In this document: one piece after another, positions 3,806 to 23,929 of the stretch | How the letters are laid out: each line of letters begins with the position of its first letter | Numbering within the stretch: position 1 is the first letter of the stretch | Origin: Myxococcales bacterium | GTDB lineage: Bacteria; Myxococcota_A; Polyangia; Polyangiales; Polyangiaceae | Direction of reading: 5' to 3' | DNA length: 34,204 bases | Assembly: GCA_025354825.1 (NCBI GenBank) | Contig: JANXMC010000249.1 | Location: 1 to 34,204, forward strand | Position numbers and translations under genes: made by a program | Notes under the pieces: model-generated | The model's input: the letters and a program-made list of their open reading frames with translations, nothing else | What the model was told of the DNA's origin: nothing | The model's database searches: none

Positions 3806-6319
3806 ATGATGCGCGCCGAAATGGCAGCCCCCGACTTCAAACCGTACATCCCCGCCTCCGCCAAGCTCCGCGAGCTCACGGTCGTGCCGCTCATCCTCGG
3901 CACCGTCCTCGGCATCGTCTTCGGCGCGTCGTCCCTTTACCTCGTCCTCAAAGTCGGGTTGACGGTGAGCGCGTCGATCCCGGTCGCGGTCATCTCGATC
4001 ACGCTGTTTCGGCTGCTGTCGAAGCTCGGCTTCAAGAACACGACGATTCTCGAGAACAACGTCGTTCAAACGGCGGGCTCGGCCGGTGAGTCGATCGCGT
4101 TCGGCGTCGGCGTGACGATGCCGGCCATCATGATTCTGGGGTTCGACCTGGAGGCGACGCGCGTCACTTTGGTCGCCGTCCTCGGCGGGCTCCTCGGAAT
4201 CCTCATGATGATTCCGCTCCGTCGCGCGCTCATCGTCGAGCAGCACGGCCTCCTCAAGTACCCGGAGGGGACGGCCTGTGCCGAGGTGCTCAAAGCCGGC
4301 GCCTCCGACGAATCGCGTAAGGCCGCGTCGCTCGACACCGCGAGCGCGGAGGCCGACGACGGCGACGAGTCAGGCTCGGGCGGCAAGGTCATCTTCGCCG
4401 GCTTCGCCTTGGGACTCATTTACAAGGCCGTGATGGTCGCCCTCAAAGGGTGGAAAGACACACCCGAGAAGATCTTCGGCGCGCCGTTCAAGGCCGGCTC
4501 GGTCTCGGCGGAGATCTCCCCCGAGCTTCTTGGAGTTGGCTACATCATCGGCCCGCGCATCGCGTCGGTCATGTGTGCCGGCGGCGTACTTGCCTATCTG
4601 GTGCTCATTCCCGCCATCAAATTTTTCGGCGAAGGGATGGTCGGCCCCCTCGCTCCGGGCACGATTCCGATCCGTGAGATGAGCCCCCACGAGATCCGCA
4701 GCGCCTACATTCTCTACATCGGTGCAGGGGCCGTCGCGGCGGGCGGCATCGTGAGCCTCTTGCGGTCACTGCCGACGATCTGGAGCGGCATCCGCGGCGG
4801 CCTGCGCGACTTCAAAGCCCGCAAAGAGCGCGGCGCCGGCGACGCCGTCGATACGACGTTGCGCACCGAGCAAGACCTGCCGATGAAGTGGGTTCTCATC
4901 GGGCTCATCGCCATCATGGCCGTCATCTCCCTCGCGCCGTCGCTTCACATGAACCTCGGCGGCGCGATTCTCATCGTCGCCTTCGGGTTTCTGTTCGTGA
5001 CGGTCTCGTCGCGGCTGACGGGCGAAATCGGCTCGTCGTCGAACCCTATTTCCGGCATGACGGTCGCGACGCTCCTCTTCACGTGCGCGATCTTCTTGCT
5101 CCTCGGTTGGACGGGCTCGGCCTACTACGTCACCGCCCTCTCGGTGGGCGCCATCGTCTGTATTGCCGCGTCGAACGGCGGCACGACGTCACAAGATTTG
5201 AAGACTGGCTTTCTATTGGGGTCGACGCCGCGCCTTCAGCAAATTGCCATTCTCGTCGGCGCCCTCGCGTCGGCCGTGATTCTCGGCCCCATCCTTCTTC
5301 GCCTCAATACGGCGGCCACCGTCTACGTCCCGCGCATCTCTTTCGAGCGCACCGAGCCTACCGTCGCAGCCGCGCCGCTCGCAAGCGACGTCGCCGCCAC
5401 GCTCCCGTCCTATTCGGGTAGCGCGCCCCACGGCGGCGGCACGTTCCTGAGCTACCATGCGCCCGGCGACAGCACGCTCCCCGCAGGCTCCTACCTCGTC
5501 GACGCCCAGACCCACGTCGTCGCCTTCAAGGTCTCCGAGACCTTCCCCGAAGCGCTCCACGTCGATCCGGCCACGCTCACCCAGCACGAGCACGTCGAAG
5601 GCCCCCAAGCCAAAGACGACGCCGCCAGCTACTTGGTTTGGCACAAGGTCGACGCCGAGAACGGGCCCCCCGGCAAATACCTCGTACGTGACGACGGGAC
5701 GCCGGCCTACTTGGTCGATCCGGGCATCAACGGTGTGCACTCGGCACGCCCGGACGGCTCCCACGTCGCCAAGTTCGACGCGCCCAAAGCGACGTTGATG
5801 TCGTACATCATCAAAGGGATTCTCAATCGCCAGCTCCCCTGGGGCCTCGTGCTTCTCGGTGTGATGATCGCATTGGTGCTCGAGATGTCGGGCATTCCGT
5901 CCCTCGGCTTCGCCGTTGGCGTGTACCTGCCGCTCTCGTCGTCGACGCCGATCTTCGTCGGCGGAATGATTCGCTGGCTGGTCGACATGAACCTTCGCAA
6001 AAAACACGAAGGGAAAAACCTCACCGAAGAAGAGCTCACCGCCGAAGGCGACAAGAGCCGCGGCGTCTTGATGGCCTCCGGCTACATCGCGGGCGGCGCT
6101 ATCGCCGGCATCGTCATCGCCTTCGTTGCAGGCGTTTTCGGCGACCTTCAGACGCGCATCGAAGAGTGGTCGAAAGCGAACAATCCATTCTTCGAAGGGC
6201 CCAACTCCGACGCATGGTCCATGGTCCCGTTCCTCGCCATCATGCTTCTCCTCTTCCTCGTGGGGCGCGACATGGTGCTCGCGGCGCCCAAGCGGATGGC
6301 GAAAACGGCTTCGAAGTAG
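3806..6319 (+). CDS. OPT-family oligopeptide/metal-chelate transporter
   Basis: A polytopic inner-membrane transporter of the OPT superfamily, which imports oligopeptides or metal-peptide chelates by cation symport. The N-terminal [21 protein letters not shown] region, the [20 protein letters not shown] segment and the [15 protein letters not shown] loop are all typical of bacterial OPT members. At 837 residues it is longer than the usual 600-700. Much of the excess is a soluble region at about residues 505-660 between membrane segments. It contains two similar stretches (SYHAPGD...[16 protein letters not shown] and VWHKVDA...[18 protein letters not shown]) before the final helices. ATG codons at 3809 and 3821 are alternative starts. 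The substrate cannot be read from sequence. The gene stands alone and ends at a hairpin shared with the GNAT gene. Confidence 0.92.
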
Positions 6320-19213: not shown

Positions 19214-20512
19214 ATGCTTCCGCGGTTTTGGCTCCCCGCCGGCGTCGTTGCGGGCGCGGCGCTCGCGTGCGGTGGCTCGCCCACCGTGTCCGACGCGACG
19301 GAAGCGACACGCGCGACAGACGCAGGGGTGACGTTCGTGGCGGACGCCGGCGCCGGTGTCGACGCCGCCCCGAATACGGATCTCGCCGACAGCTTCGATA
19401 TCCCACTTCGTGGCATCACGACGGAGCAGTTGAATCAGTTTTTCGACGGCGACCGCCTCTTCGAGCTGACGCTTCGCCCCTTCGACGGCCTCGGCCCGCT
19501 CTACACGCGTGCGTCGTGCGGCGCGTGCCATAGCGGCGGGGTGCGAGGCCCCGGCCTCGTGCGGCGCATGGCGGTCATGCTGGTCGACGGCATCACGGTC
19601 GCGCCCGATCAAGCGACGCTGCTCCCCTACGGCTCCACGGTGCGCGCGCTCCTCGAGGCCGGCGCGAAGACGCCCATCGAGCCGCCCACGGATCCGAGCG
19701 TCCGCGTGTCGGTGCGCCTTGGTCCGTCGATTCTTGGTCGCGGCTATCTCGAAGCGGTCGCCGACCGTGAAATTCTGCGCGTCGAAAGCGCCCAAGCGCT
19801 GCGAGAAGACGGCATTCACGGCCGCGCGAACCGCGTGATCTATGCGTCGGAAGCGAACCCCGACACGCGCTTCAACGCCCACGCGAAGGGCGACTCGGTC
19901 ATCGGCCGCTTCGGTCTCAAGGCGCGCATCGCGACCCTCGACGAGTTCGTCGCCGACGCGCTCCAGGGCGACATGGGGATCACGAGCCCGCTTCGCCCCA
20001 CCGAAACCGTGAACCCCGACGGCCTCACCGACGACTTGAAACCGGGGGCCGACGTCACCGCCGACAGCGTGAACGGGCGGGCCACGTACATGCGCCTCAC
20101 GGCCATCCCCGAGCGGCGCGCGGCTACGCCGGAGGGGCTCGCGGCGTTCGACAGCGCGCTCTGCAGCGTGTGTCACGTGCCGAGTCTCGCGACCCGCGCC
20201 GATTACCCATTAGCGCCCCTCGCGGGAATTGCCGCGCCGGTCTTTACCGATTTCCTTTTGCACGACATGGGCGAGGCGCTCGCCGACGGCATCGTCGAAG
20301 GGGGCGCGGGCTCGCGCGACTGGCGCACGGCGCCTCTTCTCGGCCTCCGTTTCGCCAAGACGTACCTCCATGACGGTCGCGCGTCGTCCATCGCAGAGGC
20401 CATCGAGCTTCACGGCACGCCCGGCTCGGAAGCCGCCCCATCCACCGCGCTCTACCACGCGCTCTCCGCCTCTTCGCGCGACGCGCTCGTCGCCTACGTT
20501 CTCTCGCTCTGA
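19214..20512 (+). CDS. di-heme oxidoreductase (DHOR) lipoprotein
   Basis: A c-type cytochrome of 432 residues with a lipobox (ALAC, Cys19) and an Asp/Ala-rich spacer, so it should face the periplasm. Two heme-binding CxxCH motifs are present: C102-G-A-C-H106 and C317-S-V-C-H321. The surrounding segments (FFDGDRLFELTLRPFDGLGPLYTRASCGACH, LPYGSTVRAL, GLKARIATLDEFVADALQGDMGITSPL, and LLHDMGEALADGI before LGLRFAKTYLHDGRA) match the DUF1111/DHOR family, a relative of di-heme cytochrome c peroxidases. Family members are often encoded beside imelysin-type proteins, as here (55-base gap), and are linked to iron uptake or redox change of iron. Heme binding is well supported; the physiological electron partner is not. 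Confidence 0.93.
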   Translation: MLPRFWLPAGVVAGAALACGGSPTVSDATEATRATDAGVTFVADAGAGVDAAPNTDLADSFDIPLRGITTEQLNQFFDGDRLFELTLRPFDGLGPLYTRASCGACHSGGVRGPGLVRRMAVMLVDGITVAPDQATLLPYGSTVRALLEAGAKTPIEPPTDPSVRVSVRLGPSILGRGYLEAVADREILRVESAQALREDGIHGRANRVIYASEANPDTRFNAHAKGDSVIGRFGLKARIATLDEFVADALQGDMGITSPLRPTETVNPDGLTDDLKPGADVTADSVNGRATYMRLTAIPERRAATPEGLAAFDSALCSVCHVPSLATRADYPLAPLAGIAAPVFTDFLLHDMGEALADGIVEGGAGSRDWRTAPLLGLRFAKTYLHDGRASSIAEAIELHGTPGSEAAPSTALYHALSASSRDALVAYVLSL

Positions 20513-20567
20513 CGTCGCTCGCCTTCGTCGAGCGCGCCCGCCGATTCCCCCTCTCGAAAGCCCCTTC

Positions 20568-21728
20568 ATGCGCTGCTCTTCATTTTCGTCGGACCTTCGT
20601 GCCTTCGCGCTCGTCGCGTCCGTCGCGTCCGTCGCGCTTGACGCCTGTTCGTCGAGCACGTCCGACACGCCCGTCACGACGCCCACGGCCGATGCCGGCG
20701 CCGACGCCGTTGCGCCCGCGCTCACCGACGAGCAGCAGAAGTCGCTTGCCCTACAGGGGATGCACGATGCGCTTCTTCTCAACGCGAACGCCCTCGTGCA
20801 GGCCGCGACCGATCTGCAGGCGCTCGCGCCCGTGACCACCGGTCGCGGGTGGGACGTGACGGCCGACGCAAAGACGCTCACGGACATGAAGGCGACGTGG
20901 GTTCGTGCGCGTACGGCCTACGAGAAGATCGAAGGGGCCCTCGCGCCGCTCTTCCCCGACATCGATTACGTCATCGACGCGCGGTACGACGATTTTCTCG
21001 CCGACCTCGCGACCAAGGGGGGCGACGCCTATCTCTTCGACGACAGGGGCGTGACCGGCATGCATGCGGTCGAGCGCATTCTCTTCGCCGACGTAACGCC
21101 GGCGCGCGTCGTGACGTTCGAGAAGGCGCTCCAGGGGTACGTCATCGCGGCGGTCCCCTCGACGGAAACGGAAGCGAAGGACTTCAAAACGAAGCTCCTC
21201 GCCAAGCTCGTCAGCGACGCCATCGCCCTTCGCGACGCGTGGACTCCCGCGAAGATTAACGCGGCCGTCGCCTTTCAAGGGCTCATCGCGCTGATGAACG
21301 AGCAGCGCGAAAAGGTCGAAAAGGCGTCGTCGAACGAAGAAGAGTCGCGCTACGCGCAGCGAACGATGGCGGATCTCCGCGACAACCTCGAAGGGACGAG
21401 AACGGCCTATTCGTTTTTCAAACCGTGGATCGTGGCCAAAGTGAATACCAAAGATCCGTCGAAGGACGGCGCGGCGGTGGCGGCGAAACTCGACGCGGGC
21501 CTCGTCGCCCTCGACGCGGCCTACGCGAAGGTCACGGGCGACGCGATCCCGGCGCCGCCGGCAACCTGGAGCGCCGAGGCGCCGTCGGCGGCCGACCTCG
21601 CAACGCCGTTTGGCACGCTCTACGCCTCGGTCCGCAGCGCGGTCGATCCGGCGGCCGACGGCTCTGTCGTGTTCGAGATGAACGTCGCCGCCGAGCTGCT
21701 CGGCTTCCCGATCTTCACGGCCAATTGA
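20568..21728 (+). CDS. imelysin-family (EfeO/IrpA-like) lipoprotein
   Basis: The product is 386 residues, start ATG 20568. A signal sequence ends in a weak lipobox (LDAC, Cys27) and is followed by a Thr/Ala/Asp spacer. The imelysin hallmark GxHxxE is present as G164-M-H-A-V-E169. A W111-x7-E119-x-x-E122 helix precedes it (WVRARTAYEKIEG), and SEEE/Arg-rich helices lie toward the end. Imelysin proteins sit in the periplasm or outer membrane and take part in iron acquisition, often with a di-heme cytochrome gene next door. Here the pair occurs with a ferritin-like gene starting 7 bases after the stop, a likely operon. Iron-related function is inferred from family and context; protease activity should not be assumed. 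Confidence 0.9.
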   Translation: MRCSSFSSDLRAFALVASVASVALDACSSSTSDTPVTTPTADAGADAVAPALTDEQQKSLALQGMHDALLLNANALVQAATDLQALAPVTTGRGWDVTADAKTLTDMKATWVRARTAYEKIEGALAPLFPDIDYVIDARYDDFLADLATKGGDAYLFDDRGVTGMHAVERILFADVTPARVVTFEKALQGYVIAAVPSTETEAKDFKTKLLAKLVSDAIALRDAWTPAKINAAVAFQGLIALMNEQREKVEKASSNEEESRYAQRTMADLRDNLEGTRTAYSFFKPWIVAKVNTKDPSKDGAAVAAKLDAGLVALDAAYAKVTGDAIPAPPATWSAEAPSAADLATPFGTLYASVRSAVDPAADGSVVFEMNVAAELLGFPIFTAN

Positions 21729-21735
21729 GCGCGGT

Positions 21736-22893
21736 ATGCGGCACGAAGAGCGACGTATCAGTGCGATCTTTCAGCGCGCCATCCTTCTCGCGATGGCCGC
21801 GCCAACGCTTGCGGCCTGCGCCGACGCCGGCTCCGTGGGGCCGCCGTCCACGTCGCCGCCGGGCACGGTGGGCGATGCGGGAAGCGACGCGACGACCACG
21901 CAGTCGATCGACGGAGGGCTCGCCTTCGACGGAGGGCTCCACGTCGACGACGGCGGCATTTGCGCGTCCCACCTGATCGCGTCCGAGCCGGTCGATACGT
22001 GCGGCAACTACGTCAGACTGCCGTGCGGGGTCCCCCAAGGCGTCGTGCCTCGCGACAACTGCTATTTCGAAATCAACGACTGCGCGAGCATTTGCCCCGA
22101 TACGTATTTCAACTGTCATGCGATTGGCGACTCGTGCCTTGACGGCGGCGCCATCGTGGCCGACGACGCGGGGGGCGTCACGGTCGACTGCGCGATCTGC
22201 CTCACGGGCGTCGGCCGCATTCCCGCGGGTCTCGCCTCGGGAGCCGTCGCCGTCGCCTTCGTGCATCCGTCACCGGTCGGCGCGTACTTCGCGCGCGCAT
22301 CTCACTTCGAAGCGGCGTCGGTCCATGCGTTTCGCCGCCTCCGGCGCGAGCTCGCGCAGCATGCGGCTCCGCCTCGCTTGCTTCGCGCTGCACGCCGCGC
22401 CGAACGCGACGAGGCTCGTCATGCGCGCCTCACTGCCCGGGCCGCGCGCCGCTTTGGCGCCGCCCCGATCACGCCGCGCGTTCACCCCGTCGCGGCCCGA
22501 GCGCTCGACGCCGTCGCCCTGGAGAACGCCGTCGAAGGGTGCGTGCGCGAGACGTTTGGCGCTCTCGTGCTGCATGTGCAGGCGGCGGCGGCGGGCGATC
22601 GCGCCGTCGCCACGATGCTCGCCGAGGTCGCGCGCGACGAGACGCGCCACGCGGCGCTCTCGTGGTCGGTCGCAGCGTGGGCCTCGCCCCGTGTCGACGC
22701 CGCATCCCGCGCCCGCATCGCCGCGGCGTGCGCCGTCGCGATCGCCGAGCTGCGTCGTGGGGTCGACGCCGCGGCCTCCATCGCACCCGACGCCGAGCTC
22801 GCGCGCGTCACGGGCCTACCGAGCCGTGAGGTCTCTCACATTCTCTTGAATGTTCTGGAGGCGGATCTTTTTGCCACCCTCCCCCGTGCGTAA
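21736..22893 (+). CDS. ferritin-like di-iron domain lipoprotein
   Basis: The product is 385 residues. A signal peptide with lipobox LAAC (Cys28) leads into an Asp/Gly-rich spacer and a Cys-rich stretch (residues about 76-155, ten or so cysteines). From about 185 on is a four-helix ferritin-like domain. The di-iron pattern is two E-x(n)-E-x-x-H sets: Glu192 with E226-x-x-H229, and Glu268 with E302-T-R-H305. Such domains oxidise or store iron, or act as oxygen-using di-iron enzymes. Similar Glu/His pairs appear in many myxobacterial lipoproteins of unknown role. The seven-base gap to the imelysin gene suggests co-expression and periplasmic iron handling. The Cys-rich part is an unusual partner and may be held by disulfides. 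Confidence 0.85.
   Translation: MRHEERRISAIFQRAILLAMAAPTLAACADAGSVGPPSTSPPGTVGDAGSDATTTQSIDGGLAFDGGLHVDDGGICASHLIASEPVDTCGNYVRLPCGVPQGVVPRDNCYFEINDCASICPDTYFNCHAIGDSCLDGGAIVADDAGGVTVDCAICLTGVGRIPAGLASGAVAVAFVHPSPVGAYFARASHFEAASVHAFRRLRRELAQHAAPPRLLRAARRAERDEARHARLTARAARRFGAAPITPRVHPVAARALDAVALENAVEGCVRETFGALVLHVQAAAAGDRAVATMLAEVARDETRHAALSWSVAAWASPRVDAASRARIAAACAVAIAELRRGVDAAASIAPDAELARVTGLPSREVSHILLNVLEADLFATLPRA
21908..21939 (+). repeat. two-copy 18-bp-period tandem repeat in the lipoprotein spacer
   Basis: TCGACGGAGGGCTC occurs at 21908-21921 and again at 21926-21939, giving IDGGLAFDGGLHVDDGG in the flexible spacer after the lipobox. The unit is six codons. Such spacers tolerate slippage; no function is implied. 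Confidence 0.7.
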
Positions 22894-22936
22894 AGCGGCG
22901 CAGATGAAGCGCGCGTCGCGTGACGACGAGGCATCG

Positions 22937-23929
22937 ATGCGGCAGGCTGTGGTCGTGGCTTTCTTCTCACGTCACGGGCGTTCGCGCCGGGGCTCGCCTG
23001 TAGGTCTCGCGTGCGCGGTGCCCCTCGCGCTTGCCGCGTTCGCGGGGATGAGCGCCCTCACGGAGAGCCCCGCCGAAGCGTACTGCCGCAAGACGACGAA
23101 CGGACCCACCGACGCAAGCTACGACCCGTCGGCCACACAAACGTGTGGCGACGGCCCCAATGCGCTTCCGCTCTTTTGGCGAAGCGCGTGCGTCGAATAC
23201 TCGGTCGTCGTCGAGCCGGCGTTGCAGCCGCTTCTCAGCATCGAGCGCGCCCGCGCTATCGTCGCGAGCGCCGCGCAGACGTGGAGCGAAGCGCCGTGCC
23301 CGCGGGACAAGGGCGGCCTCAAGTCGCCCACGATTCGCATCGTCGACGTGGCGGCCGCGCGCTGCGACGGATCGTTGCCAAACGATACCGCGAAGGCGAA
23401 CAACGAAATACGTTTCTTCAATAAAGCGCCCGAAGTTTCGGGCACCCTCGCCGTGACGACGAACCTGTTCGGCGCCGCCTCGGGGACGATGACCGAAGCG
23501 ACGGTCACGATTTACAACACCGGTATCTTCGACGCGTATGCCAACGACGTCGACAAGACGAAGGGCCTCGAAGACAGCTTCTCGGCCGTGATTCGCCACG
23601 AGATGGGGCACTTTTTGGGGCTCGCCCACTCCGACAATAACTCGGCGATCATGTACGCGTTCTACAACGGCAACCCGCCGCCGGGCCTCACCGACGACGA
23701 CATCGCCGCCATCTGCGACGTCTACGACCCCTCGGCGCCCGTCGGTGCGGGGTGCAGCGTCGCGCCGACGAATCCCGCAAATGCGTCCAACCCGAGCGGC
23801 CGCTCTGCCAACGACACGAACGCCCTCATGCCGCTGTTTCTCGGCGCGGCGGCGTTCGCCGCCCTCAGTGGTCGTGTTGTGAAGAAGAGAGTGCGCGCGT
23901 TACGCCCAGGCCGACCCAGAAGCCCGTAG
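22937..23929 (+). CDS. matrixin-type (M10-like) zinc metalloprotease with C-terminal anchor
   Basis: The product is 330 residues from ATG 22937, with an AGG six to eight bases upstream. ATGs at 22904 and 22850 are possible, and the last would overlap the preceding gene. A long basic N-terminus and a hydrophobic helix end near AEAYC, a likely signal-peptide cleavage. The zinc motif is H221-E-M-G-H225-F-L-G-L-A-H231, followed by a Met-turn (SAIMYAF), so a metzincin is firm. At the C-terminus a Cys (AGCSVAP), a linker, a hydrophobic stretch and a Lys/Arg cluster form a tripartite tail like a diverged MYXO-CTERM sorting signal. I infer a cell-surface or secreted protease. The gene's last 65 bases overlap the convergent barrel gene. 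Confidence 0.85.
   Translation: MRQAVVVAFFSRHGRSRRGSPVGLACAVPLALAAFAGMSALTESPAEAYCRKTTNGPTDASYDPSATQTCGDGPNALPLFWRSACVEYSVVVEPALQPLLSIERARAIVASAAQTWSEAPCPRDKGGLKSPTIRIVDVAAARCDGSLPNDTAKANNEIRFFNKAPEVSGTLAVTTNLFGAASGTMTEATVTIYNTGIFDAYANDVDKTKGLEDSFSAVIRHEMGHFLGLAHSDNNSAIMYAFYNGNPPPGLTDDDIAAICDVYDPSAPVGAGCSVAPTNPANASNPSGRSANDTNALMPLFLGAAAFAALSGRVVKKRVRALRPGRPRSP

Follow-up and report, generated by a model that had tools for sequence, protein, structure and literature searches.

A predicted ferritin-like lipoprotein gene in the place where most di-heme oxidoreductase-imelysin pairs of a myxobacterial order have a cytochrome P460-like gene

Does a gene for a ferritin-like lipoprotein that follows two iron-related genes in a myxobacterium belong with them, and what does it stand in for? 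The locus lies on a contig of a Myxococcales bacterium of the family Polyangiaceae (JANXMC010000249.1, assembly GCA_025354825.1), the whole 34,204 nucleotides of which are called here the window. It contains a di-heme oxidoreductase (DHOR), an imelysin, and the ferritin-like lipoprotein (FER), which an earlier sequence-only reading had assembled into a "four-gene-scale" iron module. Comparison of genomes shows that the usual form of this locus in Myxococcota is DHOR, imelysin, and a predicted cytochrome P460-like monoheme lipoprotein (hereafter P460). Our tentative reading, to which we give somewhat less than an even chance, is that the three genes, probably transcribed together, form a module of exported iron proteins and that FER fills the seat of P460 in the lineage of the window. 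The genes are the following:

19214-20512, + strand: DHOR, di-heme oxidoreductase or putative peroxidase (PF06537), 432 amino acids, predicted lipoprotein (Pfam, two CxxCH, lipobox pattern)
20568-21728, + strand: imelysin (Peptidase_M75, PF09375), 386 amino acids, probably exported, lipobox pattern failed (Pfam, EfeO match)
21736-22893, + strand: FER, lipoprotein of 385 amino acids with a Cys-rich N-terminal and a ferritin-like C-terminal domain

A re-check of the open reading frames (ORFs) bears out these coordinates, the common strand, and the 7 bases between the end of imelysin (stop at 21728) and the start of FER (21736); 55 bases separate DHOR from imelysin. Gene calls are the longest ORF per script, with approximate starts and overlaps.

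The distribution of the third gene was established in the order of the host, where 183 genomes were searched, window-type imelysin was found in 40, and window-type DHOR loci were taken at E ≤ 4.4e-57. The resulting table has 58 loci, without the weaker DHOR loci L105, L106, L109-L111, and L146, and without L078. DHOR and imelysin occur together in 42 of them, and the pair is indeed a recurring one. Beside these 42 pairs one finds P460 in 30 cases, FER in 4, neither in 8, and both in none. The 16 loci with only DHOR or only imelysin have P460 in 5 cases, FER in 3 (twice in genome G034 and once in G050), and neither in 8. In total, P460 is present at 35 loci and FER at 7, with no locus among the 58 having the two; the chance figure for this lack of overlap (8e-4) ignores shared ancestry and is descriptive only. 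The P460 gene is 1.1-2.1 kb from the pair in 5 of its 35 loci and is elsewhere nearer or in an overlapping ORF; its absence is uninformative where the contig soon ends (e.g., L099, L107, L108, L116, and L134). Conservation of the third gene beside the pair had been set, along with iron binding, as the test of the module; FER adjoins only 4 of the 42 pairs.

P460 was recognized in a survey of the neighbors of DHOR and imelysin loci, which took in clusters of at least four loci, as a recurring small monoheme lipoprotein with a C-terminal CNxCH. The largest cluster of that survey (41 ORFs) was set aside; it appears to consist mostly of shadow ORFs on the opposite strand. Cytochrome_P460 (PF16694) is matched by 10 of 17 aligned members at E ≤ 1, the best at 3e-8; the three members with bits shown (22, 22.5, and 18.1) are all under the family cut-off of 27, and the profile of the third gene has a weak match to a solved cytochrome P460 (E = 0.002). 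The P460-like proteins have an invariant Lys; their match to the solved protein is too poor to equate it with the Lys that is cross-linked to heme in true P460. Members of the P460/c'-beta superfamily act on hydroxylamine, bind NO, or have peroxidase-like activity, according to PMC11928373. Among genomes of the order, a P460-like match is present in 32 of the 40 with window-type imelysin versus 12 of the 143 without it (Fisher p = 2e-18, a descriptive value that ignores shared ancestry). The arrangement extends beyond the order: in a sample of 282 genomes of the phylum, part of them from the order, 15 have window-type imelysin, 8 of which are outside the order. Seven of these eight loci are readable, and all seven have DHOR-imelysin-P460 in a single orientation, their ORFs touching or overlapping; the contig of the eighth stops after imelysin.

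Some of the loci outside the order have a β-barrel porin gene after DHOR-imelysin-P460 (for example L245, 4023-5207, - strand, Porin_O_P over the cut-off; L239, 3953-5365, - strand, BBP2 just under the cut-off), possibly an outer-membrane pore of the module. No porin gene is seen directly after FER, where neighbors were not scanned with Pfam. At L083 the DHOR-imelysin pair is flanked on both sides by P460-like genes (2025-2654, - strand, and 5249-5752, + strand).

The window has no P460-like gene, and none is found in the rest of its genome (G000). Eight genomes of the order have window-type imelysin and lack P460; four have FER (G000, G034, G141, and G144) and four have neither (G019, G169, G170, and G172), G019 doing so at both its loci. 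When 11 selected genomes were searched more deeply, G000, G034, G141, and G144 again gave no P460. G143 has one P460-like gene, at its other DHOR-imelysin locus, which lacks window-type FER; in G050 such a gene adjoins a separate imelysin, again at a locus lacking FER; and the remaining five genomes have at least one each. The six comparison genomes among these 11 were partly chosen for known P460 loci, and the cross-table of the order is the fairer count. Completeness is 82% for G034 and 94% for G141, which makes their single absences weak, and G144 is a complete chromosome.

The four triplets are those of the window, of Minicystis rosea (G144), of G141, and of contig C338 of G143, where FER is cut by the contig end. 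In G034, DHOR and imelysin are on separate contigs, and each is followed by its own FER (after 22 and 6 bases). Gaps between imelysin and FER are 7, 6, 6, 4, and -4 bases. The linkage persists between proteins only 49-63% identical to those of the window, while the flanks have changed: ORFs within 6 kb are not common to FER loci, with the exception of one gene in the close relatives L116 and L117. A fourth conserved gene is hence not supported, and the "four-gene-scale" module shrinks to three genes. Within one lineage FER keeps its place beside the pair, in four triplets and in the split G034; rather than extending the pair, as first proposed, it occupies a seat that usually belongs to a P460-like lipoprotein. 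G050 has a separate DHOR-FER-FER arrangement. Two divergent ferritin-like ORFs score well below the FER family, one upstream of DHOR in G056 (L134, 2708-5164, - strand) and the other ahead of the pair, in opposite orientation, on contig C390 of G143 (L118, 5239-5985, + strand). The ferritin-like genes beside DHOR in G050, G056, and G143:C390 are further hints of a ferritin-like/DHOR link.

Trees of the two partners indicate how the seat may have changed hands. In the imelysin tree, which includes the loci outside the order and leaves out L112 (long branch), the FER rows form one group (support 93/79) nested among P460 rows and next to three P460 loci. In the DHOR tree, a group with support 96/93 unites five of the six FER rows and leaves out G050, hence the linkage of DHOR and FER arose at least twice. 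The plain reading would be a single gain of FER in the third seat with loss of P460, followed by the split and duplication in G034; most likely, FER took the seat of P460 once in the lineage of the window.

What kind of protein occupies the seat can be approached from its conserved residues and predicted structure, the relevant parts being these:

21817-21819, + strand: FER lipid-attachment Cys28 (Cys in 69 of the 70 rows of the alignment, with a gap in the remaining one)
21961-22200, + strand: FER Cys-rich domain, residues 76-155, 10 Cys (alignment; separate model)
22267-22890, + strand: FER ferritin-like helical domain, residues 178-385 (model helices, fold matches)
22309-22311, + strand: FER predicted metal ligand E192, helix 1 (70/70 invariant)
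22411-22422, + strand: FER predicted metal ligands E226 and H229, ExxH, helix 2 (70/70 invariant)
22534-22551, + strand: FER predicted metal ligand E267 and/or E272, helix 3 (both 70/70 invariant)
22639-22650, + strand: FER predicted metal ligands E302 and H305, ExxH, helix 4 (70/70 invariant)

In the FER alignment, the protein of the window is compared with 69 relatives, the set of 80 ORFs having been cleared of near-copies. E192, E226, H229, E267, E272, E302, and H305 are identical in all 70 sequences and match the set E, ExxH, E, ExxH of the ferritin-like di-metal superfamily, with the rubrerythrin-type ligand spacing as reference. In the AlphaFold2 model (mean predicted local distance difference test, pLDDT, of 83.9), these residues are carried by the first four of the helices 180-208, 213-239, 257-285, 289-319, and 322-347. 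Scanned singly, the 70 proteins give weak matches (E ≤ 0.1) to Rubrerythrin (24/70), AurF (16/70), and Ferritin_2 (12/70), and a search of PDB sequences with FER returns only a desaturase (E = 0.5) besides a designed helix bundle (E = 0.002). The best fold alignment of domain 178-385 is with a PaaC-like protein (Z of 14.4, root-mean-square deviation of 3.0 over 188 residues), followed by R2lox (13.7), aldehyde-deformylating oxygenase (13.5), symerythrin (13.3), and bacterioferritin (13.1), values near the level of caution, as for helical bundles a Z below roughly 13 may carry little meaning. The model of the Cys-rich domain (pLDDT 82.8) has no significant fold match in the PDB (best E of 1.5). 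The invariant ligands and a predicted fold that is probably ferritin-like make it very likely that FER is a lipoprotein of the ferritin-like di-metal kind. The earlier description as a ferritin-like lipoprotein is thus supported by the ligands, the probable fold, and, for the lipid anchor, Cys28; the window protein is below every listed Pfam and NCBIfam cut-off.

FER shares with ferritin-like di-iron enzymes (PaaA/PaaC type, R2lox, aldehyde-deformylating oxygenase, symerythrin, and rubrerythrin) the ligand set, placed on a predicted helical bundle that matches theirs at Z of 13-14, close to the level of caution, and differs from them by its lipid anchor, its Cys-rich N-terminal domain, and its scores below the Pfam cut-offs. 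We know of no characterized ferritin-like di-iron enzyme that combines such an anchor with such a domain. A ferritin in the strict sense, storing iron for imelysin, would also have a ferritin-like domain with ExxH motifs, and bacterioferritin is among the fold matches. Nevertheless, a protein with a lipid anchor, an N-terminal Cys-rich domain, and extra helices would be an unlikely cage subunit, and the top fold matches are di-iron enzymes; we consider storage highly improbable.

Several observations weigh against the proposed module, in addition to the caution due to the Z scores. The third seat can be dispensed with, as 8 of the 42 pairs lack both FER and P460. A Foldseek search with the FER model gives nothing at E ≤ 0.001 (best E of 0.026). 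No Fur-like box is found in the window within 3 mismatches of the consensus, which counts against the iron reading. FER is a multi-copy family, with seven matches in the genome of the window; at least one match (E ≤ 0.001) is present in 40 of the 59 genomes searched, this one included, with a maximum of 17 per genome, and at E ≤ 1e-30 FER is in 54 of 108 genomes of the taxonomic family of the host. The best 80 named loci among the matches listed belong to Corallococcus, Myxococcus, Sorangium, Minicystis, and others. DHOR or imelysin is within two ORFs of FER in five of them (L147-L150 and L213) and in none of the other 75, fewer than 600 bases being available before FER in 9 of the 80. The FER loci beside the pair are largely one lineage, and the mutual exclusion with P460 rests on few independent events. 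Finally, the FER trees (52 of 80 rows after removal of near-copies, and a smaller one with 23 rows chosen by hand) have poor resolution. The five linked copies do not come out as a clade, and forcing them into one is weakly rejected (p-AU 0.037), but they form one group with L151, the third copy of G034, at low support (63/67).

Some of these observations would suit FER as a hitchhiker, the third position being a convenient slot for lipoproteins in which FER landed once in an ancestor, with P460 lost independently and FER serving a separate function (e.g., oxygenase or stress). FER is multi-copy and mostly located elsewhere, its imelysin-linked loci are a single lineage in the imelysin tree, and pairs with neither partner exist. 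A passenger, however, is harder to reconcile with a linkage kept at the protein identities given above despite changed flanks, with a FER of its own beside each half of the split pair in G034, and with the recurrence of ferritin-like genes beside DHOR in G050, G056, and G143:C390. We judge this explanation unlikely.

Two observations concern the FER family itself. A near-identical FER-FER pair occurs in two families, at L093 332-2889 (contig C145 of G000) and L077 7139-9555 (contig C89 of G050), with end branches of 0.04-0.09 in the tree; the G000 copy follows a multicopper oxidase and an OEP gene, and the G050 copy follows DHOR. Their likeness may be due to a transfer in the recent past or to contamination in the assembly of 859 contigs. 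The FER of L196, from a record titled Comamonas sp. KCTC 72670, groups with the Myxococcus copies, and this assembly may be mislabelled or mixed.

The identity of the pair is clearer than that of FER, and its motifs are located as follows:

19517-19531, + strand: first heme c motif in DHOR, CGACH, residue 102
20162-20176, + strand: second heme c motif in DHOR, CSVCH, residue 317
21057-21074, + strand: GxHxxE motif of imelysin, GMHAVE, residue 164 (motif as in PMC3143127)

Both proteins are above their Pfam cut-offs (DHOR with PF06537, 147.1 bits for a cut-off of 22; imelysin with PF09375, 70.8 bits for 23.5), and this, together with the two CxxCH and the GxHxxE, confirms the identities first given to them. 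At least two CxxCH are present in 55 of the 57 DHOR of the set, and GxHxxE in 48 of the 50 imelysins, that of the window included. Imelysin has a distant sequence match to EfeO (7wgu, E = 1e-5), and a PDB sequence search with DHOR gives no match at E ≤ 0.01. Elsewhere in the genome of the window, imelysin matches are on contigs C255 and C658 and DHOR matches on C255, C257, C598, and C736. The lipobox test, a PROSITE-style pattern, is passed by 46 of 57 DHOR, 38 of 50 imelysins, and 71 of 90 FER. The statement that all three are lipoproteins is borne out for DHOR and FER of the window, whereas its imelysin fails the pattern (Asp at -2).

The replacement of P460 by FER, as seen in the arrangement of the genes, suggests a similar redox job, such that the role of FER would overlap with that of the P460-like heme protein. 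We infer that the module is exported and handles iron and redox chemistry, FER being a di-iron oxidase or peroxidase and DHOR a putative peroxidase or oxidoreductase. The third-seat protein would be a small redox unit at the membrane surface whose reaction partner is an oxidant (O2, H2O2, or NO); the di-iron site of FER would oxidize Fe(II) or reduce peroxide, imelysin would bind iron and hand it on, and DHOR would dispose of peroxide or pass electrons onward. The stronger statement, by which the di-iron FER has functionally displaced a P460-family heme protein and performs the same chemistry on H2O2, NO, NH2OH, or Fe(II) for DHOR and imelysin, is possible though rather doubtful.

The seat might alternatively hold a substrate of DHOR. 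DHOR might act like the di-heme enzymes MauG and MbnH and oxidatively modify the third protein, which is P460 in most lineages and FER here. In favor are the two hemes of the DHOR oxidoreductase, the predicted metalloprotein in the third seat of 34 of the 42 loci, and the near-invariant Trp 310 and Trp 315 of FER (65 and 69 of 70). Yet the Pfam family of DHOR differs from that of MauG and MbnH, two unrelated substrates would be required, and 8 of the 42 pairs have neither partner; such a role appears improbable.

Known systems provide partial parallels. Imelysins are tied to iron uptake, and in Pseudomonas aeruginosa the imelysin operon PA4370-PA4373 is Fur-regulated (PMC3143127). In it, imelysin lies beside a di-heme DUF1111/DHOR-type protein, exported and with a link to iron uptake. 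The order there is imelysin-DHOR-imelysin, with two imelysin-like proteins and one DHOR-type protein, whereas the module of the window has DHOR, one imelysin, and then the P460-like or FER lipoprotein. EfeUOB likewise brings together a heme peroxidase-type protein and an imelysin-domain protein, but EfeB is a DyP-type peroxidase and not a DHOR (PMC9174327). Neither an Ftr1-type permease nor a DyP-type EfeB is among the seven genes of the window scanned with Pfam. The third seat is elsewhere usually filled from the P460/c'-beta superfamily (PF16694), and in the window by FER. Literature linking cytochrome P460 with imelysin was not found, in a coverage that excludes most subscription journals and all bioRxiv preprints, and the titles and abstract starts listed for imelysin, di-heme, DUF1111, ferritin-like, and myxobacteria contain no description of the DHOR-imelysin-FER triplet.

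The surroundings of the locus add little. A promoter scan finds no promoter-like site and is uninformative, as are the four terminator-like sites (3.4 expected); among the repeat families shown there are only short imperfect GC-rich matches, which were dismissed. Just downstream of FER is a gene for a Matrixin-like protease (M10, 48.7 bits; window 22934-23929), for which the ORF list has a start at 22850, inside FER, although translation probably begins near 22937; the other FER loci have no such ORF nearby. A PhoX-type phosphatase-like gene (31.1 bits, cut-off of 24) lies near the pair at L123 (1880-3739, - strand), with ORFs like it near three further loci.

Imelysin-DHOR systems are widespread, and the gene in the third seat offers a handle on what the module does with iron. 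If FER and P460 are interchangeable, the substrate common to both cofactors would reveal its task. The module also places a large, uncharacterized myxobacterial family of di-iron-type lipoproteins in a genomic context.

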